Part shown: piece by piece, positions 37,949-64,000 of the stretch | How positions within the stretch are numbered: position 1 is the first letter of the stretch | Layout of the letters: every line of letters begins with the position of its first letter | NCBI GenBank assembly: GCA_009924135.1 | Contig: RFSE01000009.1 | Location: 1-64,000, forward strand | Source: Pseudomonadota bacterium | GTDB lineage: Bacteria > Verrucomicrobiota > Verrucomicrobiia > Limisphaerales > SXTU01 | DNA length: 64,000 bases | Direction: 5' to 3' | Notes under the pieces: model-generated | What the model was told of the DNA's origin: nothing | The model's input: only the letters and a program-made list of their open reading frames with translations | Database searches by the model: none | Program-made: the position numbers and the translations under genes

Positions 37949-38037
37949 TACTGGGCTGGGCAACGTCCGGCGCGCTTCCGCACTCCGGCAAAGAAAGTTG
38001 CCACAGTGCGAAGTTTTTTTGCGTCGAACTGCGGCTG

Positions 38038-45729: not shown

Positions 45730-46437
45730 ATGATCCTGCGTCCCACCACCTCCCGCGTCCACGGTTACACGCTCGTTGAGCTGATGCTGACCGTGGTGCT
45801 GGTTGTGTTGATGCTGGGCGCGGTGGTCTATAACTTCTCCTCGACCGGCCGCAATGCCCGGCTCGACGAGGGCGCGACCCAGGTCGAGGCCTTGTTCCGC
45901 TTCGCCCGCGCACACGCCGCCAGCACCGGCAAACAGGTGCGGATACTGTTCCCGGAGGCGGAGACCGGGGATAACGCCGAATCGTTGCAGGCGGAGGCGC
46001 CCGGGGCCACCGTGCGCGTCACCTTTGAAATGGACCCCGTCGGTGCCCCTGGTGTGTTTCAAGAACTGCCCGAGGCGGCACTCTACGTGCAGAACATCAG
46101 CGATCTCGTCAGCATCCAGCAGGTTCAGCCGGGTGACGAGAGCACGAACCTCACGGCGGACACGACCGCTCCGGCCCCGGAGCCAGCCGCAGCAGCGGCC
46201 CCGGTGGACGAAACGGCTCGCAGTCCGTTTTCATCGGTGACGTTTTATCCCGATGGCACCGGTGACTCGGTGTCGGTGGTTTTGACCTCGCGCACCGAGG
46301 AAGACGCCCGCCGCATGTCCGTGCGTGTCGTCGGGCTTACGGGCTCGATCCGCCGTCAGGTGGTCAACGACCCGTCCGATCCCGAAACCACACCTCCCGC
46401 CTCGGCCACGGAGGCCGCTGCGGAGGGCGCGAAATGA
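45730..46437 (+). CDS. gspH: minor pseudopilin GspH
   Basis: 235 residues with a prepilin leader VHGYTLVELMLTVVLVVLML and a GspH-like body (ALFRFARAHAASTGKQVRIL, SSVTFYPDGTGDSVSVVLTS). An Ala/Pro-rich insertion (TTAPAPEPAAAAAPVDET) near 160 and an Ala-rich tail lengthen it beyond the usual 170-190. It begins 5 bases after gspG and overlaps gspI by 4. Confidence 0.88.
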   Translation: MILRPTTSRVHGYTLVELMLTVVLVVLMLGAVVYNFSSTGRNARLDEGATQVEALFRFARAHAASTGKQVRILFPEAETGDNAESLQAEAPGATVRVTFEMDPVGAPGVFQELPEAALYVQNISDLVSIQQVQPGDESTNLTADTTAPAPEPAAAAAPVDETARSPFSSVTFYPDGTGDSVSVVLTSRTEEDARRMSVRVVGLTGSIRRQVVNDPSDPETTPPASATEAAAEGAK

Positions 46438-46853
46438 GGTTTGGTCCGGTCCCCTCAACCGCCCCGCGCCAGGGCACTGTTCTGCTGGAAGTCCTCCTCG
46501 CTCTGGCCTTGTTCGTCAGTGCTGCCGCCATCGTCACCAGCGGCATGAACGCCTCGTCCGACAATCTCGAACGCCAGCGGCTCAACACGCACGCCGCCAA
46601 TCTTGCCGCGACCGTACTGGCCGAAATTCAGCTTGGCATCCGTCCCACCACGGAGGCGGGCGAGCAGCCGTTTTTGCCCCCGTTTGAATTGTGGACCTCG
46701 GAACTGGTCGTTTCGCCGACGGAGACCGAGTCTGGCGAAGCCAGCGGGTTGCTGCGCGTCGAGGTCATCATCCGGCACAAGGAAGCCACGCTGGTCCGCC
46801 GGCTCGCGCAGGTCATCCGCATTCCGGACACTTCCGCCCGGACCACCTTCTGA
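46434..46853 (+). CDS. gspI: minor pseudopilin GspI
   Basis: 139 residues, the usual GspI length. The leader is RQGTVLLEVLLALALFVSAA, with Glu5 after the Gly cleavage site. LAATVLAEIQLGI fits the family helix. The start ATG overlaps the gspH stop (ATGA) and GGAGG stands before it, so translation is coupled. Confidence 0.88.
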   Translation: MRFGPVPSTAPRQGTVLLEVLLALALFVSAAAIVTSGMNASSDNLERQRLNTHAANLAATVLAEIQLGIRPTTEAGEQPFLPPFELWTSELVVSPTETESGEASGLLRVEVIIRHKEATLVRRLAQVIRIPDTSARTTF

Positions 46854-46854
46854 T

Positions 46855-47622
46855 ATGCGCATCTCCCGCCATTATTCAGAAGCGTTGATGCCGGGAGCCG
46901 CTGCGGCTGGCTCACCGATTCGCCATTCGCCGGCCTTCACGCTGCTGGAAGTCGTGCTGGCCATCACCATTGCCATCGCGATCCTCGTTGTGGCGCTTGC
47001 GTTCCACCAGCAGGCCACGACGCTGCGGGGCGCGTTGCTCGAAGAGTCTGAGCGCCTGGCTGCGGTGCGGCAGGTCATGGACCGGCTCTCCGCCGATTTG
47101 CGTGTTGCTCCGGTGCATTTACAATTCGGCTTTACGGGCAGCTCCAATTCCCTGCGGTTCATCTCCACCGGCCTGCCGCTTCCCCCGGGCATCGGAACTG
47201 ATCTCAAGCGCATCAGTTACCAGGCCACGGTCTCCAACGACGGCACCAATATTTCCGTCAGTGGCCTGTTGCGCAGCGAAGAACCGGCCGTGGACCTGAT
47301 CACCTCGAAAATCGCACCTGCGCTCGTGACGGCGACGGGTGACACCAACGCCCCGGCCACCAACGGCCCCACCGCCGTACCGCTCACGGAACTGATCCGG
47401 TTTCTGAGCTTCCGCTTCTGGGATGGTACGGCGTGGCGCGACAGTTGGAGCGGCACCACGCCCCCGCCGGGCGTGGAAATCAGCCTCGGCTTCGAACCGC
47501 TGCCGGCGGATGTCGCGCCCGAGGAATATCCCGCTGAGATTTTCCGCCGCGTCATTTATCTCCCCGCCGGCCAGCCGCTGGCCCCGTCCACCAACCTGGT
47601 CGCGCGACTTCATCGACGGTGA
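46855..47622 (+). CDS. gspJ: minor pseudopilin GspJ
   Basis: 255 residues. The leader is long (27) and ends HSPA-FTLLEVVLAITIAIAI: the residue before the cut is Ala instead of Gly, which prepilin peptidases usually tolerate less well. The body has ESERLAAVRQVMDRLSADLR and LSFRFWDGTAWRDSWSG as in GspJ. It starts 1 base after gspI. It caps the pseudopilus tip together with GspI and GspK. Confidence 0.88.
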   Translation: MRISRHYSEALMPGAAAAGSPIRHSPAFTLLEVVLAITIAIAILVVALAFHQQATTLRGALLEESERLAAVRQVMDRLSADLRVAPVHLQFGFTGSSNSLRFISTGLPLPPGIGTDLKRISYQATVSNDGTNISVSGLLRSEEPAVDLITSKIAPALVTATGDTNAPATNGPTAVPLTELIRFLSFRFWDGTAWRDSWSGTTPPPGVEISLGFEPLPADVAPEEYPAEIFRRVIYLPAGQPLAPSTNLVARLHRR

Positions 47623-47670
47623 ACTTTTGCTTACAACGCCAACGGACGAATTTCCCTTCGCTCACCGCGA

Positions 47671-47675
47671 GGGAG
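47671..47675 (+). promoter_or_regulatory. ribosome binding site deciding the gspK start
   Basis: GGGAG lies 6 bases before ATG 47682. The longer frame from GTG 47619 has no such site. Confidence 0.5.
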
Positions 47676-47681
47676 ATCGGA

Positions 47682-49142
47682 ATGCTCCCGACGAGCAGTC
47701 CGCGCTGTGAACGCCGGCCCGGGTTCATGGGACAGGAGAAGTCGCGCACCGTTGACCACCGCGCCTTCGTCCTCATCGCGATTCTCGTGCTGGTCATGCT
47801 GCTTTCCATGCTCGTGGTCAGCCTGCTCTTCCGCTTCAAGGCGGAGGACGCCGCCGCGCACGCCAGCGTCGGCACCGAGCAGTCCTGGGCGGCAGCGTTG
47901 AGTGGCGTGGAAGAAGCCCTGCGCGTTGCCGCTGCGGCGGTGCCCGGCGCGACGGACTGGCAGGAGAATCCCGGGGCGTTCCGGGACCGGCTCGTGTTTG
48001 AGGATGGCGGCGAGAACTGGTACTTCACCGTTTTTTCGCCCGATGGCGGCGAGTCCCTGAGCACCGTCCGTTACGGTCTCACCGACGAGGCGTCGAAGCT
48101 GAACATCAACGCCACCACCAATTTCAACCTGGAAAAGCTGCCCCGCATGACGCCGCAAATGGCGGCCGCCTTGTTTGACTTCATCGACAATGACGATGTT
48201 CCCCGGCCCGAGGGTGCGGAGCAGGATTATTACAGTGCGTTGCCGCGTCCCTACACGATTCGCAACGGGCCGCTGGCCTCACTCGACGAGCTGCTGCTGG
48301 TGCGGGGGTTCACCGACGAACTGCTGCACGGAACCGCGGCGGTACGCGACCCCGGCACGAACAGCGATTCCCCGCCTCCCACCAGCAACGACACGCGACC
48401 GGTGCGCGGGCTGAGCCAGTTCCTTACCGTCTCCACGCACGAACCGGACGTGGCGAATGACGGCACGGCCCGCGTGAATTTCAACAGTCCGGACGCCGAA
48501 CTGCCGGCGGTCGAACTGCCGCCTGCCTTCACGAATTTTATCACCGCGTTGCGCACCAACGGCCTGGTCCTGCCCCATGCCGCCTACCTGCTGGAGGCGA
48601 CCCTGCCGCTGAAGGGGCCCAAGGGGGCCAACGTGGAAATCGCTTCCGGCATCGGCAAGGCCGAGCTGCCCATCGTGCTGGAACGATTCACGGCCTCGGC
48701 GACCGCCCAGCTCCCCGGTCTCGTCAACGTGAACACGGCCAGTGCCACCGTGCTCGCCGCCCTGCCGGGCATCGATGAACCGCTGGCGGAATCCATCGTC
48801 TCCGCCCGGCGCGGCCTCAGCCCGGAACGGCGCAACACCATCGCATGGCTTTATCAGGAGGGTGTGGTGGACGCCGCGAAGTTTCAGGAGCTGGCCCCGT
48901 TGCTGACCGCGCGGAGTTATCAGTTCTCGTTCCTGGTCATCGGCTACGGCCTGCCCTCGGGGCGGTTCCGCATGCTCGAAGCGGGCATCGACGTCGCCCC
49001 GGGCACGCGGCGCATCACCTATCTCCGCGATGTGACCCGGCGGGGCTTGCCCTTCAACCTCGGCACCGACCCGGACGGTGCCCCGGCCAAGTCCGCGCAG
49101 GTTCGCCCGACCAAATCTGGAAAGGAGCCCCACCGTGGCTGA
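47682..49142 (+). CDS. gspK: minor pseudopilin GspK
   Basis: 486 residues from the ATG at 47682. A hydrophobic leader helix (AFVLIAILVLVMLLSMLVVS) replaces a canonical prepilin motif, as is common in GspK. GLTDEASKLNINATTNFNLE is the GspK core, LDELLLVRGFTDELLHG follows, and a helix-hairpin-helix-like LVNVNTASATVLAALPGIDE lies near 365. It is longer than typical (about 330). It sits at the pseudopilus tip. A GTG start at 47619 overlapping gspJ by 4 bases cannot be excluded. The C-terminal end overlaps gspL by 8 bases. Confidence 0.9.
   Translation: MLPTSSPRCERRPGFMGQEKSRTVDHRAFVLIAILVLVMLLSMLVVSLLFRFKAEDAAAHASVGTEQSWAAALSGVEEALRVAAAAVPGATDWQENPGAFRDRLVFEDGGENWYFTVFSPDGGESLSTVRYGLTDEASKLNINATTNFNLEKLPRMTPQMAAALFDFIDNDDVPRPEGAEQDYYSALPRPYTIRNGPLASLDELLLVRGFTDELLHGTAAVRDPGTNSDSPPPTSNDTRPVRGLSQFLTVSTHEPDVANDGTARVNFNSPDAELPAVELPPAFTNFITALRTNGLVLPHAAYLLEATLPLKGPKGANVEIASGIGKAELPIVLERFTASATAQLPGLVNVNTASATVLAALPGIDEPLAESIVSARRGLSPERRNTIAWLYQEGVVDAAKFQELAPLLTARSYQFSFLVIGYGLPSGRFRMLEAGIDVAPGTRRITYLRDVTRRGLPFNLGTDPDGAPAKSAQVRPTKSGKEPHRG
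49121..49127 (+). promoter_or_regulatory. ribosome binding site deciding the gspL start
   Basis: AAAGGAG is 7 bases before GTG 49135, which supports this start over ATG 49162. It is the clearest such site in the secretion operon. Confidence 0.65.
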
Positions 49143-50796
49143 CCGTGATTCGCTACCCGCCATGGCCTTGAAGAAACTTTCGCTCAAACGCGAGCAGCGG
49201 CCCCGTTTGCCGGCACAGGCCACGGCACTGGACATTGATGGCCGTTCTCTGCGGGTGGTGCAAACGACCACGCGCGGCGGCCAGCCGGCCGTGAGCCGGG
49301 TCGTGGTTGCGCCGCTCAATCTGCCGGCGGACGCCGATCGTACGGACGCCGCCGTGCTGGGCGGGGCCATCGCCAAGTCGCTCGAACAGCTCAAGCTCAA
49401 GCCCGGGCCCGTCGTCATGGGCATACCCCGCGCGCAAGTGGTGTTGCGCACGCTGTTGCTGCCGGTGATTGCGGATGTGCGCGAGCTGGCGTCCATCGTC
49501 CATTTGCAAGTGGGCAAGGACCTGCCCTTCCGGCTCACTGAAGCGGTGGTTGATTTCCAGATCCACCGCCAGATCAACCCGCCGCCGCCCAAACTCGAGG
49601 CGAACGCCAAGCCCGGCCAGCCGGCCGAAGCCGCCCCCGCGCCGCCGCCGAAGCTCGAAGTGCTCGTCGCCGTGGCGAAGCGCGAGGTGGTGGACTTCTA
49701 CCAGCGTGCCGCCGAGGCGGCGGGCGTGAAGCTCGTGGCGCTCGGGTTGTTGCCCAGCGCCAGTGCGCGCTGTGTGCACGCCTGCCAGTCAGTGGAACGC
49801 GGTCAGGCCTATGGCTTGATCTCGCTGCGGCCGGACGAGGTGGGCATCGACATCGTGGCGGATGAGGCCGTGCCCTTCAGCCGGGGGGCCAGCGTGAAGC
49901 CGCCCACCGAGCCTGGCGCGGCGGACCCCTACATCAGCGCGGCGACCATCGAGGTCGTCCGCAGCCTGCACAGTTACAGTGGGCTGGGCGCAACCGCTTC
50001 GCTGGCCAAACTGCTCGTCGCCGGCGCGACCGGGCATGAGGCCGCCGTGGTCGCGGCCCTCGCCACGCGCGTCAGCACGCCGGTGGCGTTGCTCGATTCG
50101 GCGGCGTTGGAACTGCCGGAGGATTCGCGTGGCCCGGCGGGGGGGGCGACCGCAGGCATCGGTCTGGCGCTGGGTTTTGCGGACCCCGGCGGCCTGCCGT
50201 TCGATTTCCTTAATCCCAAGCGGCCCGCTGTCCAGCGTGACCTGCGGCGGATCAAGATTCTGGCGGGCCTGGCGGCGGTCTCGGTTGTGTTCCTGGTGCT
50301 GGCCGGCGTGCGCGCCTGGATGATGAACCAGCGGCAGGCCGTGCTCGACGCGGTGACCCTCGAAGCCACCACGGCCGAGAAGCACCGGCCGGTTTACCGG
50401 CAGATGATTGCGCAGGCGGGCGTGGTGAACGAATGGGTGCGCGGCGAACGCGACTGGCTCCTGCACTACGCCTACCTCACCGCCGTGCTGCCACGCAGCG
50501 AGGAGGTCTTCCTCACCAGCCTGTCCGTCAGCGGTCCCGGGGCCTTGCGCCTGGGCGTGCGCGCCCGGAGCGGTGAAATTCTTGCCAAAGTCGAGAAGCA
50601 GTTGCGCGCCGCCGGTTATGATGTGAAGCCGCTGGCCATCACGCCCGGCTCCGACAAAAACGGGTATGAATTCCAATCCACCGTCGAGCTGGCCGTGCCG
50701 GACAAGCTCAAGATCGACCTCGCCAAGGTGAAACCGCCCCCTCGTCCGGAGGATGACGCGTCGCTCGACCCGCCGCGCCGAAAGGGGGGTGGATGA
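49135..50796 (+). CDS. gspL: GspL-like assembly protein (actin-fold plus membrane anchor)
   Basis: 553 residues. An actin/PilM-like cytoplasmic part (ATALDIDGRSLRVVQTTTRG, LVAVAKREVVDFYQRAAEAA, LGLLPSASA) runs to about 360, followed by a membrane segment near 380-400 (ILAGLAAVSVVFLVLAGVRA) and a periplasmic ferredoxin-like end (FLTSLSVSGPGALRLGVRAR). A Pro/Ala insertion (near 145-180) interrupts the first part. GspL links GspE to GspM. The layout is like PilM and PilN fused. It overlaps gspK by 8 bases and gspM by 4. Confidence 0.85.
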   Translation: MADRDSLPAMALKKLSLKREQRPRLPAQATALDIDGRSLRVVQTTTRGGQPAVSRVVVAPLNLPADADRTDAAVLGGAIAKSLEQLKLKPGPVVMGIPRAQVVLRTLLLPVIADVRELASIVHLQVGKDLPFRLTEAVVDFQIHRQINPPPPKLEANAKPGQPAEAAPAPPPKLEVLVAVAKREVVDFYQRAAEAAGVKLVALGLLPSASARCVHACQSVERGQAYGLISLRPDEVGIDIVADEAVPFSRGASVKPPTEPGAADPYISAATIEVVRSLHSYSGLGATASLAKLLVAGATGHEAAVVAALATRVSTPVALLDSAALELPEDSRGPAGGATAGIGLALGFADPGGLPFDFLNPKRPAVQRDLRRIKILAGLAAVSVVFLVLAGVRAWMMNQRQAVLDAVTLEATTAEKHRPVYRQMIAQAGVVNEWVRGERDWLLHYAYLTAVLPRSEEVFLTSLSVSGPGALRLGVRARSGEILAKVEKQLRAAGYDVKPLAITPGSDKNGYEFQSTVELAVPDKLKIDLAKVKPPPRPEDDASLDPPRRKGGG

Positions 50797-51836
50797 ACCA
50801 ACGCGAGAAAGTTCTGGCCAGCCTGGTCATCGGCACTGCCGTCCTCTTCGGGGGCGGCCTGGGCATCCGCGCCTTCTTCTCCAAGCCGCTCGCCGAGATG
50901 GACAAGAAGATCCTCGCTGCGCGGGAGCGGCTCGAGAAAATCAATACCGAGCGCCGCAACTACTTTGCTGCTGAGGACCGCCTGAAAGGGCAGACCAAGC
51001 TGGCTTACGCCGACTCGGTGGACGAGGCCAGCGCCTTGTCCGGCGAGGTGCTCACGAAGCTGATTCTCAAGGCCGGTTTGAAGGAAGCGAACTTCACCCG
51101 CCTGCCGGTTGGTCCCCGCAAAATGCGCGGGGCCAATGAAATCGGCTGGAACGTCCAGGGCGACGGCCTGCTGCCCAGCGTGGTGAATCTGCTCTTTCTG
51201 CTCGAACAGTCCCCGTATCTTGAACGGCTCGACGGGTTGGTGGTTTCGACCGGCGACGTGCCCGGCCAGGTGCGCGTGCGTTTCCGCATCCTCTCGCTGG
51301 TGATCGATCCTGCGCCCGAAGTGAAGCGCGTGCCGCTGACCACGCTGGTCGGGCTCGATTCCCCGGAGCGTCGTTCGTTCGACGGCATCGTGTCGCGCGA
51401 CATCCTGCGGCCCTACATCAAGCGCCCACCGCCGCCGCCCGTGCCGCCCGCCAAGGGTGGTTCCGGATCGCCCACGAGCACGCCCGCCATTCCGGGTGCA
51501 CCGCCTGGACCGGAGACGTTCCGCATCGTGTCCTTGTCCGAATGGCAGGGGCAACCCGAGGTCCACGTGCGGAACCTGACCACGCAGAAGACCGACCGTT
51601 ACAAGCCTGGCGATGAACTGGCCGGTGGCACGATTGCGGTGGTGGACTATCGTTCGATGCCATTACCGGGCGGCAACGGTTTGCTGTCCTTCAGCCGCGT
51701 CATTGTGAAGGTGAAGGAGGAATTCTTCGCCGTCGAACACGGCCAGACGCTGGCCGACCTGCGCAAACTCGAACCGGAAAAACTTCCTCCCGGCCTGATA
51801 AAACCCGCCGCCGAAACCCCGCGTGGTCAGCCGTAA
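50793..51836 (+). CDS. gspM: GspM/PilO-like protein with GspC/PilP-like C-terminus
   Basis: 347 residues. A short cytoplasmic start, one membrane helix (LASLVIGTAVLFGGGLGIRA), a coiled coil about 35-65 and a ferredoxin-like domain (VNLLFLLEQSPYLERLDGLV) make the GspM/PilO part. A proline linker (KRPPPPPVPPAKGG) leads to a beta-rich end (FRIVSLSEWQGQPEVHVRNL, KPGDELAGGTIAVVDYRSM) that resembles the HR domain of GspC or PilP, the part that touches the secretin N0. No separate gspC is seen, so this fusion may do both jobs. Starts ATGA overlapping gspL. Confidence 0.75.
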   Translation: MNQREKVLASLVIGTAVLFGGGLGIRAFFSKPLAEMDKKILAARERLEKINTERRNYFAAEDRLKGQTKLAYADSVDEASALSGEVLTKLILKAGLKEANFTRLPVGPRKMRGANEIGWNVQGDGLLPSVVNLLFLLEQSPYLERLDGLVVSTGDVPGQVRVRFRILSLVIDPAPEVKRVPLTTLVGLDSPERRSFDGIVSRDILRPYIKRPPPPPVPPAKGGSGSPTSTPAIPGAPPGPETFRIVSLSEWQGQPEVHVRNLTTQKTDRYKPGDELAGGTIAVVDYRSMPLPGGNGLLSFSRVIVKVKEEFFAVEHGQTLADLRKLEPEKLPPGLIKPAAETPRGQP

Positions 51837-51848: not shown

Positions 51849-54800
51849 ATGAACCGAACGCTTCAATCGCTCCTCGCCCTGGCCCTCGCCGGCGGCACGT
51901 TCACACTCGCGGCGCAGGACGCGCCCAAGCCCGCCGCGCCGGCCGCGCCCGCCGCCACTCCCGTTCCCGCTGCGCCCGCGAAGACTGTGACCATTGCCGC
52001 GCCCGCCGGTCCCGCCGCGTCCGCGCGTAACATCCGGTTTCAATTCGACGGCATCCCTTACGCCGATGTCATCGAGCGGTTCGCGCAGATGGCCAACAAG
52101 CCGCTGCTGGCCGGCACGAAGCCTGAGGGCACGCTCACTTACAACGACGCCAACGCCTACACTTACGCCGAGGCCCTCGACACGCTCAATGTCATCCTTT
52201 CGATGAAGGGGGTCATGCTCGTGGAGAACGCGAACTACCTCCAGCTCGTCCCGTTCAAGGAGCTGCCCTCCACGCCGCTGAAACTCCTGCGCGGTGCCAT
52301 GCCCAATGGTGACGTGCGGCCCGGTGAGGTCGTCACCGCCGTGCTCGATGCGAAGAACGTGGATTCGAAGGAAATCACCGAGTCGCTCACCGCCATGTTG
52401 TCCAACGCCGGCTCCCTCGCCGTGCTGCCGCGCGGACGCGGGCTGATCATCACCGACCGGTTGGGGAACATCCAACGCATCAAGACCCTGCTCGCGGCCA
52501 TCGAGACCGATGCCCCGGCCGAACGGCAGATGAAAACCTTCGCGTTGCAGCACACGTCCGGGGCGATTGTCGCCGACCTGCTGAACCGCACGTTCGGCGT
52601 CGCCACCGCGCCGAAGCGGCAGGAGTTCAACCCGACGACCAAGGCGATGGTGGTCTTGCCGCCCGACCCCAACGAATACATCACCGCCGTCTTCGACGAT
52701 GCCTCGCGCACGATGGTGCTTTTCGGGCCGCGTGAACGCATTGCGCTGGCCGAGGAACTGATCGCGAAGTTCGAGGAACGCGAAGGTCCGGCGGGCGACG
52801 TGCGCATCTACATGCTGCAAAGCACCCGGGCCGATGAACTGGCCACCATCATCCGCCAGGCCATTCCGGGCATCGCCGAGCCGAAGGAAACCGGCAGTGC
52901 CGCCGCCACGAAAGCGCGCGTCATCGCGGATGAGAAACAGAACCGCCTCATCGTCGCTTCGCCGGTCGCCGCGCTGTTGGAACAGATCGACCTGCTCATC
53001 AACCGCGTGGACAAGGGCATCACCGGCAATTTCGGCGGCACCAACAACGTCCCGTTCCGTACGCAGACCGTGCTGATGACGAAAGTGTTCCGCCCGCGCG
53101 CAACTGAGCCGAAGGACTTTGCGGCCATCGTCACCCAGGCCCTGACCCGCCGCGAACCCGGTGGCAAGGCCGGCACCACGGCCAGCGTCACGTTCGATGC
53201 CGGCAGCAAGAGCGTCGTCATCTCCGGTTCGCCTGGGGATCTTCAGACGGCGGCGGAAATCCTGACGCAGTTGGAGACCGGCACCTCGCAGCCGCAGGCG
53301 ATGCAGACGCGCTTCATCGAGGTCGGCACGGCGGCGGATGCCAAGCGGCTGCTGCCGTTGGTGGACGAGCTTTACCGCAACCAGATGAGCGGGGCGGGCT
53401 CGCTCGACATCGGAGCCCACGCGAAGCTGATGAGCGACGACAACGGCCGGCTGATCGTGACCGCGAGCGAGGCGCATTTGCTGCGCATTGAAGAACTGGT
53501 GAAGCAATTGCGCGGCAAAAACGGCGCGCCGATGAACCGCCAGCTTCAGATCGTCACGCTCAAAAACACCCGGCTCGAAACCGTCTTCCCTGGCTTTGAG
53601 AAGCTGCTCACGGACCGCATGGCCGACCGCCGCTATGAAGGCCAGCCAAAGCCCTCGGTGGTCCCTGACAACGCGAACAACCGGATGCTCGTCACGGCCA
53701 CGCCCGAGCAGCTCACCGAGATCGAGCAGCTCGTGCAGGTGGTGGACCTCGCCCCGACCACGCAACGCCGCGAGATGGTCGTCCTGCCGGTGCGCGCGAA
53801 GGCTCCGACCGAAATCATCACGCTCGCCACGCAACTGCTCGCGCAGATGGGCGGCCCCGGTACGGACCCGCAGATGGAGCCGAAGCTCATTCCCGATGCG
53901 AGCGGCAAGCAGATCATCGTGCTCGCCACGGCGAAGGACTTGACCCGCGTGCGCGAACTCGTGACGCAGCTCGACACGGCCACGACGGTGAACCTCGTCC
54001 GGCAGTTCCGTTCCATCGATTTGAACGCGCGTTCGGCGGTCGAACTCACCCCGCTGGTCACCCAGCTTTATGCGGAGCACCTCAAGGGTCAGAACGAACC
54101 GCCCGGTGGTGCGGCCACGTTGATCGCCGACCCGAAAAACAACCGCATCATGGTCAGCGGTGCGGATGCGGAGATCACCCGCGTGGAGGCCATCATCCGC
54201 CAGCTTGATCCCGCTGGCAAAAAGCCCGCGCGCGACGAGACGCGCGTCGTCCGCCTCAAGTCCGCCGTTGCCGCCGACCTCGCCGGGCTCGTCGAGAAAA
54301 GTCTCAACGCCCAGTCGCAGTCGGTGAAGGTCTTGGTCGACACGCGTAGTAACAGCCTTGTTCTCAGTGGCGAGCCGGACGCCGTCGAAGCTGCGTCCAA
54401 GGTCATCCAGCAGCTCGATACCTCGTCGGACGCGCAGCCGCGCGAGATGCGCGTCGTGGAGTTGAAGCAGGGCGACGCCACCAGCATCGCGGCCCTGGCC
54501 ACGCCGCTCGTCACGGAACTCCTCAAGAGCCAGCGCGGACCGGAATATGCGCCCTCCGTGAAGATCGTTGCCGATGCGACTTCCAACCGCCTCATCCTCA
54601 GCGGCCCGCACAATGAACTCACCGCCGTGAGCACCATCGTCGAGCAGCTCGACCAGGCTCCCGAGGGCGCGGGCGGGGCCAAGGTTTTCAAGCTCAACAA
54701 CGCCACTGCGAGCAAGGTGGTGAACGTCGTGTCGAACGCGATGGTCAAGTTTGACGCCCGCAACCAGCCCATCCGCCGCGTGACCGTCTCCGCTGATCCC

Positions 54801-57800
54801 GAGTCCAACAGCATTGTCGTCGCGGGTACGCGCGCGGACCTGAAGGATGCCGAGAACATCATCCAGCGCCTCGACAACGAAGGCATTGATCCGTCGAGCA
54901 TGGAGAAACCCAAGGCGATGAAGATCGTCGAGGTGCGCGGGGACGCGGATGCCCTGGCGACCCTGGCCACGAAGGTCTTTCTGGCCCAGAGCGGCGGCAG
55001 CCACCTCGCGACGAATTTGGTCAGCATCACCCCCAACGGCCGTCGCATCATCGTGCTTGCCCCGCCCGCCGTGCTGCCGCAGGTCGAGTCGCTCCTCAAC
55101 TCGCTGGACGCGCAGCCGGACCAGACCCAGCGCGAGCTGCACGCCGTCCAATTGAAGAACGCTTCAGCAACGGAGCTGCTGCCCAAGGTCACGGCGGTCT
55201 ATACGGAACAGTCCGCCGGCAAGACGCAGAAGCCCGCGACCATTTACGCGGACCCGAGCGGTGTGCGTTTGACGGTGTATGGCACCAAGCAACAGGCCGA
55301 GTCCATCCAGCAGATCGCCGACACGCTCGCGGGTGATGCCCCGGCGGCGCGCGAGACGAAGGTCATCGATCTGGGCAAGCTCGCCGAAGCGAAGCGCGTG
55401 ATGGCGCTGGCCCAGCAGGTGTACAAGGACCAGTTGGCCGCCACGCCGCAGTTGGGTGCTGCGGACGCACAGATGATCAGCGATGGTGTTTCCGGCCGCG
55501 TCATCATCAATGCCCGGGCCGAGCACCTGAAGACCATCGAGGATATCTTCGCCCGTTTTCAGCCCAACCTCACGGCCACTCCGACCCGCGAAACCAAGAC
55601 CATCGACGTCGGCACGGCCAATGACGTGGAACGCCTCTTGCCGCTCGTGCAGAAGCTCTATCTTGAGCAGTGGAAGGACAAGCCGGAGACCGATCCTGCC
55701 GATGCGCAAATGGTGGCGGATCCGCAGGGCGGACGGGTGATCGTCACGGGCCGGCCGGAGCACGTGAAGGAAATCGAGGCGTTGTTCCAGAAGCTCGGCA
55801 CGGGCAAGGCCCGCTCCTCGGTGCGCGACACGCGCATCTTCGACCTCACCGCTGCGAGCGCCGTCGAACTGGCCGCCACGGTGAAGCTGCTTTACCTCGA
55901 ACAGGCCAAGGCCCGCTTCGGTGCGCGTGTCCCTGACACCCTCATCACCCCGGACACCGGGGCGAACCGCCTGATTGTGGTGGGTGAAAAGGAGGAAGTC
56001 GAAGCGGTGGCTGAGCTCATCAAGAAGCTCGACACCACCGCCGGGCAAAGCGCCACGGCGCGCGTGTTCAAAATCAAGTCTGCTGATCCCGCCAAGGTCG
56101 CCGAGGTCCTCGGCACCGCGCTGGTGCGCTTCGATGCCGCCGGGCGGGCGCAGAAACGCGTGACCGTTTCCGTGGACGCCAAGACCCGGACGCTCATCGT
56201 GACCGGCGATGCGAAGGAGTTGCAGGCCGTGCCCGCGATCATCGAGCAGCTCGACCAGTCGCTCGGCGAGCAGCCGTCCCGGCGGATGCAGGTGGTCGCG
56301 CTCAAGCCCGGCGTGTCCACGGACGTGGCGGCGAAGGCCCGCAAGTTTTACGACGACCAGCTCAAGAGCCAGCCCGAGCTGGCATTGACCGAGCTGTTGG
56401 TCATGGAGGACGCCGCCAGCAACCAGTTGATTCTCGCGGGCAGCGACGAGCAGTTGAAACTCTATGGCAAGATTCTCGATGACTTGCAGGCCATGCAGGC
56501 CGTGCCGGGTGAGCGGGTGACGCGTTTCGTGGAACTGGGCCAGCCCGAGGAAGTGCTGCGCGTGCTGCCGCTCCTGCGCTCGCTCTACGAGGAACGCTGG
56601 AAGAACCGGTCGCTCACCGATCCGGCCGACGCGACGATCATGCCCGACAGCAAGAACAGCCGGATCATCCTGAGCGGGCGGACCAACCACCTCGCCGAAC
56701 TCGAAGCCATCATCGCCCAGGTGCGCGGCAAATCCGCCAACGACCCGCGCGAAACACGCTTTTTCGATCTGGTCAGCAGTGATGTCACCACCCTGGCTGC
56801 GACCTTGCGCCCGCTCTATCTGGAGCAGGCCCGCTCGCGTCCCGGCGGAACGTCCCGCGATACGTTGATCATTGCCGAGACGAATTCCAACCGCCTGATT
56901 GTTACGGCCACGACGAATGAACTGGATGCCGTGGCCGGGCTGGTCAAGGAACTGGACAAGAGCAGCACGCAGAACGCGGGGGCCCGCATCTTCCGCCTCA
57001 AAATCGCCGATCCCGCCCAGATCACGGAAATCCTCACCAACGCTTTCGTGACGGTGGACCGGCTGGGCCGGCCGACCCGGCGGATCAGCGTGGTGGTGGA
57101 TGCGAAGAATCGCAGCCTCATCGCCACCGGCGAGGCCAAGGATTTGCAGGCCGCCGCCCAGATCATCGAGCAGTTGGATGTGCCGGCTGGCACGGACACC
57201 CCGCGTACCATGCGCATCTTTTCCCTCAAAGGCCGCCGGGCCACCGAGACCGCGCCCAAAATCAAACAGGTTTTTGAGGAGCGCGCCCGCACGCTGCCAG
57301 ACGTGGGGACCGCCGGGGCCTTGATCATCGAGGACATCCCCGGCAACCAGCTCATTTTTGTCGGCACGGAGAAGCAGCTCGCCCTCATGCAGGATGTGGC
57401 CGACGTGATGGACAAGGCCGGCAATGCGCTGGGCCGCGAAGTGCGCGTGATTCAGTTGCAGCGCAATTCCGCCGCCGCCGTCGCCGCGACCCTGGCGCGG
57501 CTCTATCCGCGCCAGACCGGCACGGTGGACCGCGAGGACCGGATGCTCATCAGCACCGGCGGCGATGACAACACCCTGATCGTGGATGCGAACCGCACGA
57601 CGCTGGAACAGGTCGAGCAACTGGTGCGCGTAATGGAATCCGAGCCGACCGCCGAGAAAACGAGCTTCCAGACGGTGCAGTTGACCAAGGGCCGGGCCGA
57701 AGAGGTCGCGACCGCCGTCATGGCGTCCTACAGCGCCAAGCTGACCAAGGGCAAGCTCCCGCGCACGACCGTCACCCCGGTCAGTGGCGCCAACACGCTG

Positions 57801-60800
57801 CTCATCAACGGCCCGAGCACCGAGGTGGACGAGGTGATGAAGGTCATCCAGAACCTTGATGTGGAGAGCAAGGCCAATGAGATTGAAATCCGCATTTACA
57901 AGCTGGAGAACGGCAAGGCCAAGGAAGTCTCCGAAATCATCCAGCAGTTGCTGCAAACGGTTTCGCGCGGCAAGGGCAAGGGCGTTGGTGGAGCTGCGAA
58001 TGTGGTTGTGGATGAGCGGGCCAATTCGCTCCTCATTTCCGGCACGCAACAACACTTCAAAGTCGTGGAGAAAATCCTGCCGACGCTCGACAAGGCCCCG
58101 GAGCGCTCGGAGCGCGATGTCCAGTTCGTCTGGCTGAAGAAGGCGAAGGCGCTCGACGTGGTATCGAAACTGGAAGGGATGTTCACCGACCGCCCCAAAG
58201 TGGAGCAGCCCGTCATCGAAGCGGACAGTCAGAACAATTCCATCACCATCATCGCCCGGCGCAATGACCTGGCACAAATTCAGGACCTCATCAACCGCCT
58301 CGACGAGCAGAGCAAGGACAACAGCCTCCAGGTCCGCCTGCGCCCGCTCGACCGCGTGGTGGCCGAGCAGATGGCCAAGATGTTGCAGAACATCTACCCA
58401 CAGATGTCGCGTGGCACCGTGCGCGTCGTGGAGAAGCTGGATCCGCCCAAGGCAGGGTTGACGAACGCACCCACGGCGACGCCGGCCACCAACTCGCCGG
58501 CCCTCCGCCCGCTGACCCCGGTGCAGTCCGTCCCCGCGGACACCAACGCGCCGCTTGAGGTGGTCATTGCCGTGGACAAGAGCGCGAACTCGCTGATCCT
58601 CTCCGGCCCGAGTGCGGAACTGGATAACATCGACCGTATCATCAACGACCTCTCGTTGAACTTCTACAGCAACGAGGCCGAGTTCCGCCTGTTTCCGCTG
58701 AAGGACGCGGACCCGGTGGTGGTGGCCCGCACGCTCAATGAACTGCTGCATGTCCCGCCGGTCACGATTCCGCCCACTCTTCCGGGGCATCCCCACACCG
58801 TCGTGCCGCAGCAGCCGCGCATCACCGTGGTGGCCGAGCAGCGCACCCGCAGCGTGATCGTGCGGGCGCGCCCGACGGATTTCACGCTGATGGAGTCGCT
58901 CATCAAGCAGCTCGATGAAAACGGCCAGACCACCCAGTTGGAGTTCCGCGTGGTGCCCCTCACGAACGCTCCGCCCGACAAGGTGCTGCCGCTCGTGCAG
59001 CAGATGATCACGCAGCTCAACGTCAACCGCCCCGGTGAACCAGTCACCGTCGCCATTGATCCCCGTTCGCGCGGTTTGCTGCTGGTGGGCCGCGACTCCG
59101 TCCTCAAGCAGGTCGAAAAGATGATCCAGTCGCTCGACAAGCCCGCGCAACACGTCGAGGCCGAGGTGATGGTCTATTCACTCAAGAAGGCCAGCGCCAC
59201 GCAGCTCGCGCTGGTGTTGCAGAACATGATCCGGCCCGGGTTGCAGGGCACCCAGACTCCCGAGGCCCGCGAGTTGCAGGAGCAAGTCCGCCGGCTGCGC
59301 GTGCTGGGCGACAGCGGCGAGGCCGTGATGCTGGATCTGACCAAGCCCATCAAGATCGTTCCGGACGGCACGGGTGGCGGCAACCGGCTGTTGCTCACCT
59401 CCACGCCGGACAACCTCAAGGCACTCGTCGCCGTGGTCGAACTGATGGACACGCCGCAGGTCGTCGAGGGCGTGAACGTCCGCATCATCAAGCTTCAGCA
59501 CGCGGATGCCGCCACCGTTTCGACGACGTTGCAGAGCATCTTCACGCAGGGCAAGCAGCTCGCCATCGGCCCCAGCGGCCCCGGCGCGCAGCCCGAGGGT
59601 CTGACCGGCAAGGCGTTGGTCAACCCGGTGGGCATCGGCGTGGACGCCCGGTCGAACACGCTCATCCTCAGCGGCCAGAACGAGTCCATCGAACTGGCCT
59701 CGAAGTTGATCGAAGACCTCGACAAGCCGGTCGAGCGGTTTGTGACGGAGGTGAAACTGTTCCGCCTCAAGCACGCCTCGGCCCTGCGCCTCGTGCCGTT
59801 GCTGCAATCCGTCTTTGCCGAAGGGCCGGTCGTGCCGGGTACCGAGGGCTTGAATACGCAGATCACCCGGATGCGCACGCTCAAGGATGCCGGCACCCCG
59901 AGCACCACCGAACGTGCCAAGGCCCGCGCCGCGCTCATCATCCAGGCCGACGACCTCTCCAACATCCTGATCGTCGCCGCCCGCAGCGACATGGTGCCGC
60001 TCATTGGCGATGTGGTGGAACAGCTCGACATTCCGTCCGCCTCCGGACTGGAAACGGTGCGCATCTTCCCGCTCGCCCACGCCGAGCCGGCGGTGGTGCA
60101 AAAGATTCTGGCCGACCTCTACACGGCGCAGAAGCCCGGCAATGTCCGCAACGAGGACAAGCCGGTCATCACGGTGGACGAGCGCACCGGTGCGCTGATC
60201 GTCGCCGGCAATGCGAAGAGCTTCGCCATCATCGAGGGACTGCTGAAGCAGCTCGATCAGAAGCTGCCGTTTGATTTGCGCGACATCCGCATCCTGCCGC
60301 TGGAGCACGCGGATGCGACCGTCGTGGCCGGCACGTTGCAGAAGCTCATGGATGCGCGCCTCACCCAGCGCGTGACTTTGAACAAGGGCCAGTCGGACGC
60401 GCTCAAGGTGGTGATCCTCGCCGACAACCGCAGCAACTCGCTGCTCATTGGCGGTGGCCGCGACAGTTTCGAAATGGTGGAGACGCTGGCCAAGCAGCTG
60501 GACAACGCCGGCCCCGCGCTGAGCGGGCGCATCCGGCTGATCCCGCTCCAGTTTGCCGACGCCCGGCTGGTGGCGACCACGATGACGACGCTGTTCGATC
60601 AGCGTTACTCCGCTTTGCGCGCCACGGATGTCCAGCGCAACAAGCCGGTCATCCTGGCGGACCCGCGCAGCAACAGCCTGCTCATCACGGCGAATCAGGA
60701 CGACAACCGGGCCATTGACGAACTGCTCCTGAAGCTCGACAACCGGATGGACAATCCGTCGCTCCAGCTCACGGTCATCCCGCTCAAGCACAACGATGCC

Positions 60801-63707
60801 GCGCGGGTCGGCACGATGATCGAAAGCATCTTCACCGCGCGCCGGGCGGCGCAGACGCTGCCTGGCCAGCCGCCGCTGCCGAGTTCGCAGATCAAGTTGG
60901 AGCCGGATGCGCTCAACAACGCGCTGGTGGCTTCCGCCAGCAAGGAGAACCTGGAGTTGATCCAGGAGCTGATCAAGAAGCTCGATGCCGAGCCGGTCAT
61001 TGCGGGCGGCGTGCTCGAGGTGTTTACGCTCAAGTTCGCCGATGCCACCCGCGTCGGGGCGATGCTGACTTCGCTGGTGCAGCAGGGGCTTTACCGGCCG
61101 GGCCACCTGCCCAATGCGCCCAAAAATGCGGCAGCGGACAAGATTGCCGTGAGCGTGGATGCGCGCGCCAACCTGCTCTTCGTCAGCGCCAGCCCGGAAA
61201 CGATGGCCGTGGTCCGCGAGGTCGTGAAACGTCTGGATACGCAGGATCAGGGCCTGAACAGCGACGTGCGGCTCTACCAGCTCAAGCACGCGCGCGCCAG
61301 CACGCTGGCCGTGACCCTCACCTCGTTCTTCACCGCCAAGCAGGCGGCGGACAACCTCACCCTGAATGCCAACGTGAAACGCCTGCCCGCCACCGCGATC
61401 CCTGACGACCGCATCAACACCATCCTCATCACGGGTGGCAAGGAGGCCTTTGATTTCGTCGAGCGCATGCTGCCGCAGCTCGACGGCGAGAGCACGTTCT
61501 CCCGGTTGAACTTCCGTGTGTTCGCGATCAAGAAGGCCACGGCCGCCAAGCTGCAGACCACGTTGCAGCCCATCTTCGCGAACCGTCCGCCGCGTGTGAA
61601 GGGCGAGCCAAACGACCCGGTCACCATCATCGCGGATTCGTGGGTGAATGCGCTGCTCGTGGGGGCGAACGTCGAGGACCTGGGCACGGTTGAAACCCTC
61701 CTCAACCAGCTCGACACCGAGCCCGCCGTCAACGGCCTCGCCATCCACGTCTTCCCGCTGGCCAAGGCCGACGTGCGGAAAGTGGCGCTGACGATTCAAG
61801 GGCTCTTCCGCGACGGCCCTCCGGGTGCCGCCGCCCTGCCTGGCCAGCAGATGCCGGTGCAGGTCACCGCCGACGAACGGATCAACGCGCTCGTCGTTTC
61901 CTGCGGGGAAGTGGACGCCAAGCGCATCGGTGAACTGGTCAAGCGCCTCGATACCGAGCAGGTGGCGCGGGTCGCCGAAATCCGGGTCTTCCCGCTGAAG
62001 AACGCCAAGGCCGATCAGCTTTCCACCATCCTCAACTCGGCGTTGAACACCAAGCCCGTGGCGCTCAGCGACCAGCAGAATCCGAACGCGCAGTCGGTGC
62101 TCCAGTTCATCACGCGTACGGAGGCGGGCCGCGAACTGATCACGGCGGGCTTGAAGGAAGCCGTGTTGATCACGGCGGATGCCCGGATGAACTCGCTGAT
62201 CGTCAGCGGTCCGGTGGATTACATGGGCCTCATCGAGCAGATCATCAACCGGTTGGATGCCAGTTCCCCGCAGGAGGCGAAGATCAAGGTCTTCGCCCTC
62301 AAGAACGCCTCGGCGCGTGCGATGGCGGACATCCTCACGCAGATGTTCCGCATGACCACCACCGCCACGACCGGCAACCAGCGCACGATCCAATACACCC
62401 TCGTCCGGCCCGGCGGTACGAATGACGCCGCCAGCGCCACGCTCGGCACTGCCGAGCAGGCGGCCCTCACGGTGACCGTGGACCCGCGCACGAACAGCCT
62501 GCTCGTCGGCGGCACGGATCATTACGTGCAGATGGTGGAGCAGATCATCGAGTCGCTGGATGGCATCAACGCCAATGACCGGCGGGCCGAAGTGGTCCGC
62601 CTCAAGAACACACAGGCTGGCGATGTGGCCGTCGCCGTCCGCACGTTCCTTGATCAGGAACGATTGCGGGTCACGCAGGTCCTGGGCGCGGACGCCGTCG
62701 GGGCCGCGCAGCAAATGCTCGAGCGCGAGGTGTCCGTGGTGGGCGAGACCAACAGCAACACGCTCCTGCTTTCCGCCAGCCCGCGCTATTTCCTCCAGAT
62801 TCAGCAGCTCATCACTGAGTTGGACATGGCCCGGCCGCAGGTGATGATCCAGTTGCTCCTCGCGGAAGTGACCCTGGACGACAATACGGATGTCGGCCTG
62901 ACTTGGAGCCTCACGGGCGGATCGCCCTATTCGGCCGGCCTCAATCTGGGCTTGTCCTCCCTCGTCAAGAACGGCCTCACGACGGCACTGACCGGCGGTG
63001 ACACGAGTTTCATCCTGAACGCCTTGAAGGAGCATCAGAAGGTGCAGGTGCTCAGCCGGCCGCAGATCGTGACGGCGGACAACAAGCCTGCGAGCATCAA
63101 CGTCGGCCAACGCGTGCCGCTCATCACCAGCAGCCAGATCACCCCGCAGGGCGGCACCGTCAACGCCTTCACCTACGAGGACATCGGCGTGAACCTGACC
63201 GTGACCCCGAAAATCAGCCCCGATGGTTTTGTGCGGCTCGAGCTGGGCACGACCAACTCATCGCTGGCCAGCTCCTCCGTGCAGATCAACTCCTCGGCCA
63301 CCGTGCCCATCATCAACCAGCGCCGCGCGAACACCACCGTGAGCGTGCAGAGCGGGCAGACCATCATCATCGGCGGCCTCATTGGTACGCAGGAGGACCG
63401 CAACGTGCGGAAGGTTCCTTTCTTCGGAGACATCCCGTATCTCGGCAGCGCCTTCCGGCACACGACCATCAGCAAGGAAAAGAAGGAACTGCTTATTTTC
63501 CTCACGCCGCAGGTGCTGGCCAACGTCCAGGTCCCCGTGCCCTTGATGCTGCCCGGCGACGTCCTGCAGGACCAGTTGGAGCGCTCCAAGCTGAAAGAGC
63601 AGTTCAAACGGAACGACTTCAACCAGCAGTTGCTCGATCCGATCTTTCCGCCGCCGACGGCCACCCCGCCGGGAGTTTCGTCTGGCACCAAGCCCGCCGG
63701 CACCTGA
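51849..63707 (+). CDS. gspD: giant type II secretin with about 43 tandem N-domain modules
   Basis: 3952 residues; ordinary GspD has 650-750. A signal peptide ends near AAQ (residue 22), then an Ala/Pro linker to about 58. N0 is about 61-136 (FDGIPYADVIERFAQMANKP). From about 144 to 3660, roughly 43 modules of 75-110 residues repeat one N1/secretin_N pattern: a strand like RVFPLKNADA, a helix, then VVADxRSNSLIVSG, and a helix ending near LIKQLD. The outer-membrane secretin domain, about 3661-3892, is standard (MIQLLLAEVTLDDNTDVGLT, LNALKEHQKVQVLSRPQIVT, VPFFGDIPYLGSAF, ELLIFLTPQVL), with a short tail after it. It should form the outer-membrane gate of the type II system whose other genes precede it. 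The module count is by eye (plus or minus two). No stop or frameshift occurs across 11.9 kb. Confidence 0.93.
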   Translation: MNRTLQSLLALALAGGTFTLAAQDAPKPAAPAAPAATPVPAAPAKTVTIAAPAGPAASARNIRFQFDGIPYADVIERFAQMANKPLLAGTKPEGTLTYNDANAYTYAEALDTLNVILSMKGVMLVENANYLQLVPFKELPSTPLKLLRGAMPNGDVRPGEVVTAVLDAKNVDSKEITESLTAMLSNAGSLAVLPRGRGLIITDRLGNIQRIKTLLAAIETDAPAERQMKTFALQHTSGAIVADLLNRTFGVATAPKRQEFNPTTKAMVVLPPDPNEYITAVFDDASRTMVLFGPRERIALAEELIAKFEEREGPAGDVRIYMLQSTRADELATIIRQAIPGIAEPKETGSAAATKARVIADEKQNRLIVASPVAALLEQIDLLINRVDKGITGNFGGTNNVPFRTQTVLMTKVFRPRATEPKDFAAIVTQALTRREPGGKAGTTASVTFDAGSKSVVISGSPGDLQTAAEILTQLETGTSQPQAMQTRFIEVGTAADAKRLLPLVDELYRNQMSGAGSLDIGAHAKLMSDDNGRLIVTASEAHLLRIEELVKQLRGKNGAPMNRQLQIVTLKNTRLETVFPGFEKLLTDRMADRRYEGQPKPSVVPDNANNRMLVTATPEQLTEIEQLVQVVDLAPTTQRREMVVLPVRAKAPTEIITLATQLLAQMGGPGTDPQMEPKLIPDASGKQIIVLATAKDLTRVRELVTQLDTATTVNLVRQFRSIDLNARSAVELTPLVTQLYAEHLKGQNEPPGGAATLIADPKNNRIMVSGADAEITRVEAIIRQLDPAGKKPARDETRVVRLKSAVAADLAGLVEKSLNAQSQSVKVLVDTRSNSLVLSGEPDAVEAASKVIQQLDTSSDAQPREMRVVELKQGDATSIAALATPLVTELLKSQRGPEYAPSVKIVADATSNRLILSGPHNELTAVSTIVEQLDQAPEGAGGAKVFKLNNATASKVVNVVSNAMVKFDARNQPIRRVTVSADPESNSIVVAGTRADLKDAENIIQRLDNEGIDPSSMEKPKAMKIVEVRGDADALATLATKVFLAQSGGSHLATNLVSITPNGRRIIVLAPPAVLPQVESLLNSLDAQPDQTQRELHAVQLKNASATELLPKVTAVYTEQSAGKTQKPATIYADPSGVRLTVYGTKQQAESIQQIADTLAGDAPAARETKVIDLGKLAEAKRVMALAQQVYKDQLAATPQLGAADAQMISDGVSGRVIINARAEHLKTIEDIFARFQPNLTATPTRETKTIDVGTANDVERLLPLVQKLYLEQWKDKPETDPADAQMVADPQGGRVIVTGRPEHVKEIEALFQKLGTGKARSSVRDTRIFDLTAASAVELAATVKLLYLEQAKARFGARVPDTLITPDTGANRLIVVGEKEEVEAVAELIKKLDTTAGQSATARVFKIKSADPAKVAEVLGTALVRFDAAGRAQKRVTVSVDAKTRTLIVTGDAKELQAVPAIIEQLDQSLGEQPSRRMQVVALKPGVSTDVAAKARKFYDDQLKSQPELALTELLVMEDAASNQLILAGSDEQLKLYGKILDDLQAMQAVPGERVTRFVELGQPEEVLRVLPLLRSLYEERWKNRSLTDPADATIMPDSKNSRIILSGRTNHLAELEAIIAQVRGKSANDPRETRFFDLVSSDVTTLAATLRPLYLEQARSRPGGTSRDTLIIAETNSNRLIVTATTNELDAVAGLVKELDKSSTQNAGARIFRLKIADPAQITEILTNAFVTVDRLGRPTRRISVVVDAKNRSLIATGEAKDLQAAAQIIEQLDVPAGTDTPRTMRIFSLKGRRATETAPKIKQVFEERARTLPDVGTAGALIIEDIPGNQLIFVGTEKQLALMQDVADVMDKAGNALGREVRVIQLQRNSAAAVAATLARLYPRQTGTVDREDRMLISTGGDDNTLIVDANRTTLEQVEQLVRVMESEPTAEKTSFQTVQLTKGRAEEVATAVMASYSAKLTKGKLPRTTVTPVSGANTLLINGPSTEVDEVMKVIQNLDVESKANEIEIRIYKLENGKAKEVSEIIQQLLQTVSRGKGKGVGGAANVVVDERANSLLISGTQQHFKVVEKILPTLDKAPERSERDVQFVWLKKAKALDVVSKLEGMFTDRPKVEQPVIEADSQNNSITIIARRNDLAQIQDLINRLDEQSKDNSLQVRLRPLDRVVAEQMAKMLQNIYPQMSRGTVRVVEKLDPPKAGLTNAPTATPATNSPALRPLTPVQSVPADTNAPLEVVIAVDKSANSLILSGPSAELDNIDRIINDLSLNFYSNEAEFRLFPLKDADPVVVARTLNELLHVPPVTIPPTLPGHPHTVVPQQPRITVVAEQRTRSVIVRARPTDFTLMESLIKQLDENGQTTQLEFRVVPLTNAPPDKVLPLVQQMITQLNVNRPGEPVTVAIDPRSRGLLLVGRDSVLKQVEKMIQSLDKPAQHVEAEVMVYSLKKASATQLALVLQNMIRPGLQGTQTPEARELQEQVRRLRVLGDSGEAVMLDLTKPIKIVPDGTGGGNRLLLTSTPDNLKALVAVVELMDTPQVVEGVNVRIIKLQHADAATVSTTLQSIFTQGKQLAIGPSGPGAQPEGLTGKALVNPVGIGVDARSNTLILSGQNESIELASKLIEDLDKPVERFVTEVKLFRLKHASALRLVPLLQSVFAEGPVVPGTEGLNTQITRMRTLKDAGTPSTTERAKARAALIIQADDLSNILIVAARSDMVPLIGDVVEQLDIPSASGLETVRIFPLAHAEPAVVQKILADLYTAQKPGNVRNEDKPVITVDERTGALIVAGNAKSFAIIEGLLKQLDQKLPFDLRDIRILPLEHADATVVAGTLQKLMDARLTQRVTLNKGQSDALKVVILADNRSNSLLIGGGRDSFEMVETLAKQLDNAGPALSGRIRLIPLQFADARLVATTMTTLFDQRYSALRATDVQRNKPVILADPRSNSLLITANQDDNRAIDELLLKLDNRMDNPSLQLTVIPLKHNDAARVGTMIESIFTARRAAQTLPGQPPLPSSQIKLEPDALNNALVASASKENLELIQELIKKLDAEPVIAGGVLEVFTLKFADATRVGAMLTSLVQQGLYRPGHLPNAPKNAAADKIAVSVDARANLLFVSASPETMAVVREVVKRLDTQDQGLNSDVRLYQLKHARASTLAVTLTSFFTAKQAADNLTLNANVKRLPATAIPDDRINTILITGGKEAFDFVERMLPQLDGESTFSRLNFRVFAIKKATAAKLQTTLQPIFANRPPRVKGEPNDPVTIIADSWVNALLVGANVEDLGTVETLLNQLDTEPAVNGLAIHVFPLAKADVRKVALTIQGLFRDGPPGAAALPGQQMPVQVTADERINALVVSCGEVDAKRIGELVKRLDTEQVARVAEIRVFPLKNAKADQLSTILNSALNTKPVALSDQQNPNAQSVLQFITRTEAGRELITAGLKEAVLITADARMNSLIVSGPVDYMGLIEQIINRLDASSPQEAKIKVFALKNASARAMADILTQMFRMTTTATTGNQRTIQYTLVRPGGTNDAASATLGTAEQAALTVTVDPRTNSLLVGGTDHYVQMVEQIIESLDGINANDRRAEVVRLKNTQAGDVAVAVRTFLDQERLRVTQVLGADAVGAAQQMLEREVSVVGETNSNTLLLSASPRYFLQIQQLITELDMARPQVMIQLLLAEVTLDDNTDVGLTWSLTGGSPYSAGLNLGLSSLVKNGLTTALTGGDTSFILNALKEHQKVQVLSRPQIVTADNKPASINVGQRVPLITSSQITPQGGTVNAFTYEDIGVNLTVTPKISPDGFVRLELGTTNSSLASSSVQINSSATVPIINQRRANTTVSVQSGQTIIIGGLIGTQEDRNVRKVPFFGDIPYLGSAFRHTTISKEKKELLIFLTPQVLANVQVPVPLMLPGDVLQDQLERSKLKEQFKRNDFNQQLLDPIFPPPTATPPGVSSGTKPAGT
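55582..57430 (+). repeat. duplicated four-module block inside gspD
   Basis: Codons about 1245-1553 and 1554-1860 encode two successive sets of four modules that match module by module: ETDPADAQMVAD with LTDPADATIMPD, LYLEQAKAR with LYLEQARSR, RVFKIKSADPAKVAEVL with RIFRLKIADPAQITEIL, and RMQVVALKPG with TMRIFSLKGR. The blocks are of nearly the same length (927 and 922 bases). They have diverged well beyond a recent copy. Confidence 0.75.
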
Positions 63708-63726: not shown

Positions 63727-64000
63727 ATGAGACTCATTACTCGCCACCAATCGCCGACCGGACTGCCAACATGGGCGGTCAGCTTGCTTTCGGCGGTCGT
63801 GTTGCTCGGTCTCGTCGGCTGCTCCTCCACTTCAGGCGGCGGTCCTACCTTCGGTGGCGGCAGTTCCGTTCAGGAGTTGCACCTCTTCGTCATGCCCGTG
63901 CCGATTGCCTCCGTTGCCGGCGGTCCACCGGACGGTATCGCCGTGCGCGCGTTTGCCACGCCCAAGGGACGGGCCACCGGCGGCCTCATCCGCAACGGTA
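63727..64000 (+). CDS. lipoprotein, 3' end cut by window
   Basis: An open frame starting ATG at 63727, 19 bases after the secretin stop, and still open at the window end (91 codons visible). The N-terminus has a basic start, a hydrophobic stretch AVSLLSAVVLLGLVG and Cys32 (LVGC lipobox), then a Gly/Ser-rich linker (SSTSGGGPTFGGGSS). The visible body (VQELHLFVMPVPIASVAGGP) gives no family. Its place directly after gspD makes a secretin pilot (GspS-like) or assembly lipoprotein possible; that is inference only. Confidence 0.75.
   Translation, partial: MRLITRHQSPTGLPTWAVSLLSAVVLLGLVGCSSTSGGGPTFGGGSSVQELHLFVMPVPIASVAGGPPDGIAVRAFATPKGRATGGLIRNG

Follow-up and report, generated by a model that had tools for sequence, protein, structure and literature searches.

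The GspD secretin of type II secretion systems usually consists of three N modules (N1-N3) placed before the gate, in about 650 aa, and secretins in general ordinarily carry two to six copies of the ring-forming domain. A longer form is PilQ of Thermus thermophilus, which comprises N0-N5 and extends 35 nm within a periplasm of ~70 nm (PMC5745081, PMC4463427), while the periplasm of Deinococcus measures 121 nm (PMC9388160). In the literature searched, which mostly excluded subscription papers, we found no description of a giant or extended secretin in Verrucomicrobiota.

The window analyzed here, a stretch of 64,000 nucleotides containing no N letters, lies on a 68 kb contig of a 6.7 Mb genome in 490 contigs. 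It contains the single uninterrupted frame of 3952 residues that the preliminary description had reported; we confirmed both the coordinates and the absence of internal stops (Table 1).

Table 1. Features of the giant secretin gene and its operon, in window positions.
Feature	Position	Strand	Basis or remark
GspE/PilB-type ATPase	41918..43585	+	Pfam T2SSE E 1e-133, MshEN; TIGR02533 gspE 614 bits, slightly below cut-off 630
GspF inner-membrane platform	43896..45098	+	Pfam T2SSF x2, E 3e-55
GspG major pseudopilin	45221..45724	+	Start approximate, in ORF 44549-45724; Pfam T2SSG E 2e-20, N_methyl
GspH pseudopilin	45730..46437	+	Pfam GspH E 6e-7
GspI-position pseudopilin-like gene	46434..46853	+	No Pfam match; same operon position in relatives
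GspJ pseudopilin	46903..47622	+	Start approximate, in ORF 46603-47622; Pfam T2SSJ E 8.5e-5
GspK minor pseudopilin	47619..49142	+	Pfam T2SSK_1st E 2e-13, T2SSK E 1e-6
GspL/PilM-like assembly protein	49078..50796	+	Start probably somewhat later; Pfam PilM_2 E 8e-11
GspM-like protein with extra conserved C-terminal domain	50793..51836	+	NCBIfam GspM E 6e-4
Giant secretin gene	51849..63707	+	Single ATG-started frame, 3952 aa, 426 kDa
Sec-type signal peptide	51849..51914	+	~Residues 1-22, read from sequence MNRTLQSLLALALAGGTFTLAAQ
N0-type domain	52026..52253	+	~Residues 60-135; weak Pfam gspD_N0, predicted fold, PDB matches to XcpQ/GspD N0-N1-N2
43 N modules	52254..62825	+	~Residues 136-3659; each strand-helix-strand-strand-helix
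Four-module block N15-N18, first copy	55587..56486	+	Best partner of each module four positions on
Four-module block N19-N22, second copy	56514..57416	+	Expansion zone; more copies in relatives
Secretin gate/barrel domain	63021..63518	+	Pfam Secretin 168.5 bits; PDB GspD match E 1e-43
Downstream lipoprotein, start	63727..64000	+	Full length 178 aa, reaching contig position 64263, past the window

The protein runs from the signal peptide through the N0-type domain and N1 to N43 to the Secretin domain and a short tail. A Pfam scan placed Secretin_N on 40 stretches (summed 1125 bits), recognized one Secretin domain (PF00263, residues 3725-3890, E 1e-49) and gave a weak gspD_N0 match at residues 72-129 (12.7 bits against a cut-off of 27); it returned no AMIN domain, the PilQ-type feature that stands before N0. 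Given that a custom HMM detected 42 modules at E<0.01 and, more weakly, the first one, we count 43 N modules, and the earlier estimate of about 43 was thus accurate, with many Secretin_N matches rather than a few. A different fold for the repeats was considered and rejected, as the KH-type Pfam matches coincide with Secretin_N modules and score lower, reflecting fold resemblance. The modules follow one another with a median pitch of 79 aa, joined by linkers of 8 aa (median), and share a median of 26% identity; no tandem repeat is left at the DNA level in the gene, indicating that the module repeats are old. The whole protein contains one cysteine. Near the gate, module N41 (residues 3377-3470) harbors a conserved helical insertion, SVLQFITRTEAGRELITAGLKE, which is possibly a constriction of the lumen.

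In assigning the protein to a family we relied on both profile and structural comparisons. The giant scores 1121.8 bits with the TIGR02517 gspD equivalog against a cut-off of 351, a value inflated by 26 repeated stretches, and it likewise passes the PilQ and SctC models. The AlphaFold predictions, made for residues 58-640 and 3135-3905, contained the strand-helix-strand-strand-helix module over and over, together with N0 and a beta-rich gate, and their top Foldseek matches were GspD, PulD, XcpQ and ExeD (E 5e-12 and 3e-26); the predicted fold of N0 matched GspD/XcpQ N-terminal structures that begin with N0. By these models and predictions the giant is a GspD-type secretin of unprecedented scale, and, since its modules are of the fitting type but number 43 rather than three, it classes as a variant of plain GspD. 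Inter-domain confidence was low (pTM 0.30 and 0.34), and the models are therefore uninformative on stacking. Of the ring stack of ~100 nm that the preliminary description envisaged, the N-type module fold is upheld by prediction, but AlphaFold gave no reliable inter-domain geometry.

A gene of this size invites the suspicion that an assembly or annotation error has fused several genes or repeats, particularly as the named loci (among the best 80 of 127 matches) all come from draft metagenome assemblies and a few giant copies are interrupted, either by a stop or by frame shifts. Against this, we identified 52 orthologues in full length, which measure 2646-5155 aa and comprise 25-56 modules (median 43); they align colinearly with the window protein at 39-90% identity, and their modules have diverged. 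The gene has no DNA-level repeats to misassemble, and purifying selection extends along the entire frame. With 52 independent full-length orthologues, misassembly or chance origin is ruled out, and the probability that we assign to an artefact is vanishingly small.

These orthologues are all longer than 2000 residues, the size that the preliminary description had proposed to search for in Verrucomicrobiota, and they are widespread in one order of that phylum. All same-genus genomes with an intact locus hold a frame of 3951-4005 aa with a top Secretin match, and frames of similar size and with the same top match occur in numerous further families of that order. When the last N modules of the giant (348 aa) were used as query, strong matches (>200 bits) were obtained in 68 of 245 sampled genomes of the order, while the same query found no giant besides the window itself in 388 genomes sampled from the whole phylum. 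Named genomes, scanned with patterns specific to the giant family, yielded at least 65 giant loci among the 80 top-ranked of 127 confirmed matches; the titles of those listed read Verrucomicrobia, Verrucomicrobiales, Pedosphaera sp. or Limisphaerales, and lakes, groundwater and ponds are the source of many. Several Akkermansia- or Klebsiella-titled loci are probably mislabelled bins. In the sampled genomes the giants are confined to one order of Verrucomicrobiota (Limisphaerales/Pedosphaerales per record titles), and, because the conventional secretins in these surveys reach at most ~1300 aa, a gap separates the conventional from the giant sizes. One giant gene (L052) is split by a single in-frame TAG (15806-15808) into parts with 24 and 25 modules, and another, on a 1.07-Mb contig (L110, 2723-12789), has 35 modules in order across several frame shifts that look like sequencing error; such broken copies reflect either sequencing errors or decay.

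All modules of the giant are under purifying selection. For the whole gene dN/dS is ~0.1-0.2 between close relatives, and in the closest pair the value for a module is never above ~0.45; that pair also shows strong constraint on N0 (dN 0.013) and a Secretin domain that changes more quickly than the majority of the N modules. N15-N18 and N19-N22 are two copies of one four-module block; in this zone relatives with 47 modules possess one extra block of the kind, and the 56-module protein possesses one extra block plus a nearby eight-module expansion. Short giants are missing a large share of the N-terminal and central regions. Judged from these alignments, giants change length by duplication of four-module blocks.

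The uneven conservation along the N region bears on how much of it forms rings. In the C-terminal half most modules are conserved one to one, while conservation of the N region is lowest in its central zone, which varies by whole blocks, as might be expected if only the terminal modules (N0, the first few and the last few) formed rings and the central ones, especially in the variable four-module zone, were flexible arms or loops back around the machine, serving in a periplasm of normal width as envelope anchor, cargo binder or collar. The coexistence of conventional secretins in the same genome and the presence of a GspM-like partner that has not lengthened (see below) agree with such an arrangement. 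However, the central modules retain the signature, the short linkers and the purifying selection, and arms between two ring-forming ends would have to exit and re-enter the ring in every protomer; we consider this arrangement unlikely, although it deserves serious attention.

The genes upstream of the giant support the view that the gsp operon is whole, with gspE-F-G-H-I-J-K-L-M assigned by Pfam and NCBIfam models together with conserved position. This order, followed by the giant and a lipoprotein gene, is kept in most relatives in which the contig extends far enough. The GspM-like gene occurs in 73 of the order's 245 sampled genomes, for the most part those that also contain the giant; T2SSM matches to its product are weak and found in 5 of 35 orthologues, and its length is nearly constant (mostly ~340-375 aa) while the giant doubles. 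Its C-terminal domain, which follows a proline-rich linker and had no Pfam or PDB match, resembles by eye the HR domain of GspC/PilP, which in GspC is the partner of N0; a GspM-GspC fusion is possible. The lipoprotein is encoded directly 3' of the giant in nearly all loci, with the lipobox Cys at least 90% conserved; it matched no known family in Pfam or PDB, known pilotin families included, and is a candidate pilotin or accessory of the tube. Given the conservation of the operon and of the lipoprotein and the co-occurrence of the GspM-like gene, we conclude that one specific type II system has the giant as its secretin. PSCyt2/PSD1 and DUF1501 gene pairs flank the operon on both sides (window 37387-41503 and contig positions 64279-68205), and such pairs adjoin it in some relatives too (L020, L024, L030, L031, L068, L074).

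The affinities of GspE to PilB (TIGR02538, 573 bits) and of GspL to PilM (PilM_2) raise the question of whether the system exports enzymes at all, or whether its pseudopilus is instead a long surface or trans-periplasmic pilus-like fibre that the giant guides, as PilQ does in Thermus; there the closest known long secretin indeed serves type IV pili (PMC5745081). On the other hand, the operon encodes pseudopilins K, J, H and G of the type II kind and no retraction ATPase was seen in it, the giant matches the gspD equivalog, and a separate locus in the same genome combines a conventional secretin of 838 aa with GspE- and PilN-type genes. A role as filament sheath thus appears rather improbable to us.

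The same genome encodes further secretins of conventional length, with one to four N modules each, among them one of 599 aa. A split secretin on contig C81 (L101, 9974-12820, minus strand) has N0 and three N modules in a part of at least 483 aa that runs to the contig edge; 24 bases on, a separate gene encodes a Secretin-domain protein of 392 aa that begins with a signal-like sequence of its own. Judging from ORF sizes, many genomes of the order probably share this split. A second protein with N0 and three N modules (555 aa) is encoded on contig C224 (L103, 9382-11049, plus strand), where it stands alone, no Secretin domain being found in the next genes tested. A search for TonB as a gauge of periplasm width was uninformative, its single match being a 79-aa open frame.

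Taken together, the fold matches to GspD, XcpQ and PulD, the TIGR02517 match, the conserved operon and the 52 giants argue that the giant serves a complete machine of the type II secretion kind as its outer-membrane secretin (GspD), the ring-building periplasmic region having been expanded by repeated block duplication to N0 plus 43 N modules. Most likely ~12-15 copies would assemble. By analogy with GspD, their N0 ends would face the inner-membrane platform and their Secretin domains would lie in the outer membrane. Many or all N modules would stack as rings, their number setting the length, and the resulting very long channel would traverse an enlarged periplasm, guiding the pseudopilus with its cargo. 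Using Thermus PilQ as a yardstick (cap plus six rings, 35 nm), we estimate that all 44 N-type domains, if stacked at 2.5-4 nm each, would extend ~110-175 nm. The architecture suggests either such a very long export tube or a folded arrangement of a new kind.

Several observations favor stacking, namely the short linkers, the purifying selection on all modules, and the N modules being mostly better conserved than the Secretin domain. The precedent of Thermus PilQ fits as well, as does the cell plan of a relative. The periplasm can be greatly enlarged in Planctomycetes, and strain Ellin514 (now Pedosphaera parvula, order Pedosphaerales) has a wide ribosome-free outer compartment, the 'paryphoplasm' (PMC2647929), since reinterpreted as an enlarged periplasm (PMC3422733). 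The unusual periplasm proposed in the preliminary description is to that extent in keeping with reports on relatives, but the same genome encodes conventional secretins, so that short ones can span its envelope at least in places, and a uniformly wide periplasm is therefore an insufficient explanation. Nor does periplasm width alone force a secretin to extend, since Deinococcus crosses its 121 nm with a 740-aa secretin. Also unfavorable are the occurrence of a paryphoplasm in V. spinosum, Prosthecobacter and Chthoniobacter (PMC2647929), which belong to groups in which the phylum sample held no giant, the unchanged size of the GspM-like partner while the module number doubles, and the lack of reliable stacking geometry in the AlphaFold models. 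Given that the short secretins and Deinococcus weaken the argument from width, we judge the chances of a long stacked-ring tube to be about even. The fuller proposal, that the enlarged periplasm of Limisphaerales is spanned by a 44-ring tube of more than 100 nm, with a mass of ~6 MDa for a 15-mer, and that module number is an encoded length gauge, changed in four-ring evolutionary steps between families (25 to 56 modules), we offer more tentatively, at somewhat less than even.

A stacked arrangement would make the giant several-fold longer than any other known secretin channel and place it among the largest of trans-envelope machines, and module count would predict the distance from inner to outer membrane in each family; the host cell plan (paryphoplasm or enlarged periplasm) has long been disputed, and the module count would make that debate testable. 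Without stacking, the N domains of secretins would serve a second, new role. Either way, a widespread, uncultured group of Verrucomicrobiota with an otherwise normal-looking export operon provides a natural series of 25 to 56 modules in which ring number can be tested against channel length.

Among secretins, the split protein of contig C81 shares with the giant N modules of the same family, N0 and a Secretin domain of similar score, but has the conventional three modules and its two halves are separate adjacent genes. DR_0774 of Deinococcus radiodurans (PDB 8co1) belongs to a bacterium with a very wide periplasm and matches the giant in fold, yet comprises just 740 aa. GspD itself (PulD, XcpQ, EpsD, ExeD) resembles the giant in its signal peptide, N0-type domain, fold of the N modules, C-terminal Secretin domain and gsp operon, whereas the giant has 43 N modules against three and 3952 aa against about 650, and its system adds a C-terminal domain on the GspM-like protein and a downstream lipoprotein of an undescribed family. 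PilQ of Thermus thermophilus is likewise a secretin with an extended N region, which there is stacked as rings, but it has six rings in 757 aa against N0 plus 43 modules, and it serves the type IV pilus and DNA uptake, whereas the giant sits in a gsp operon.
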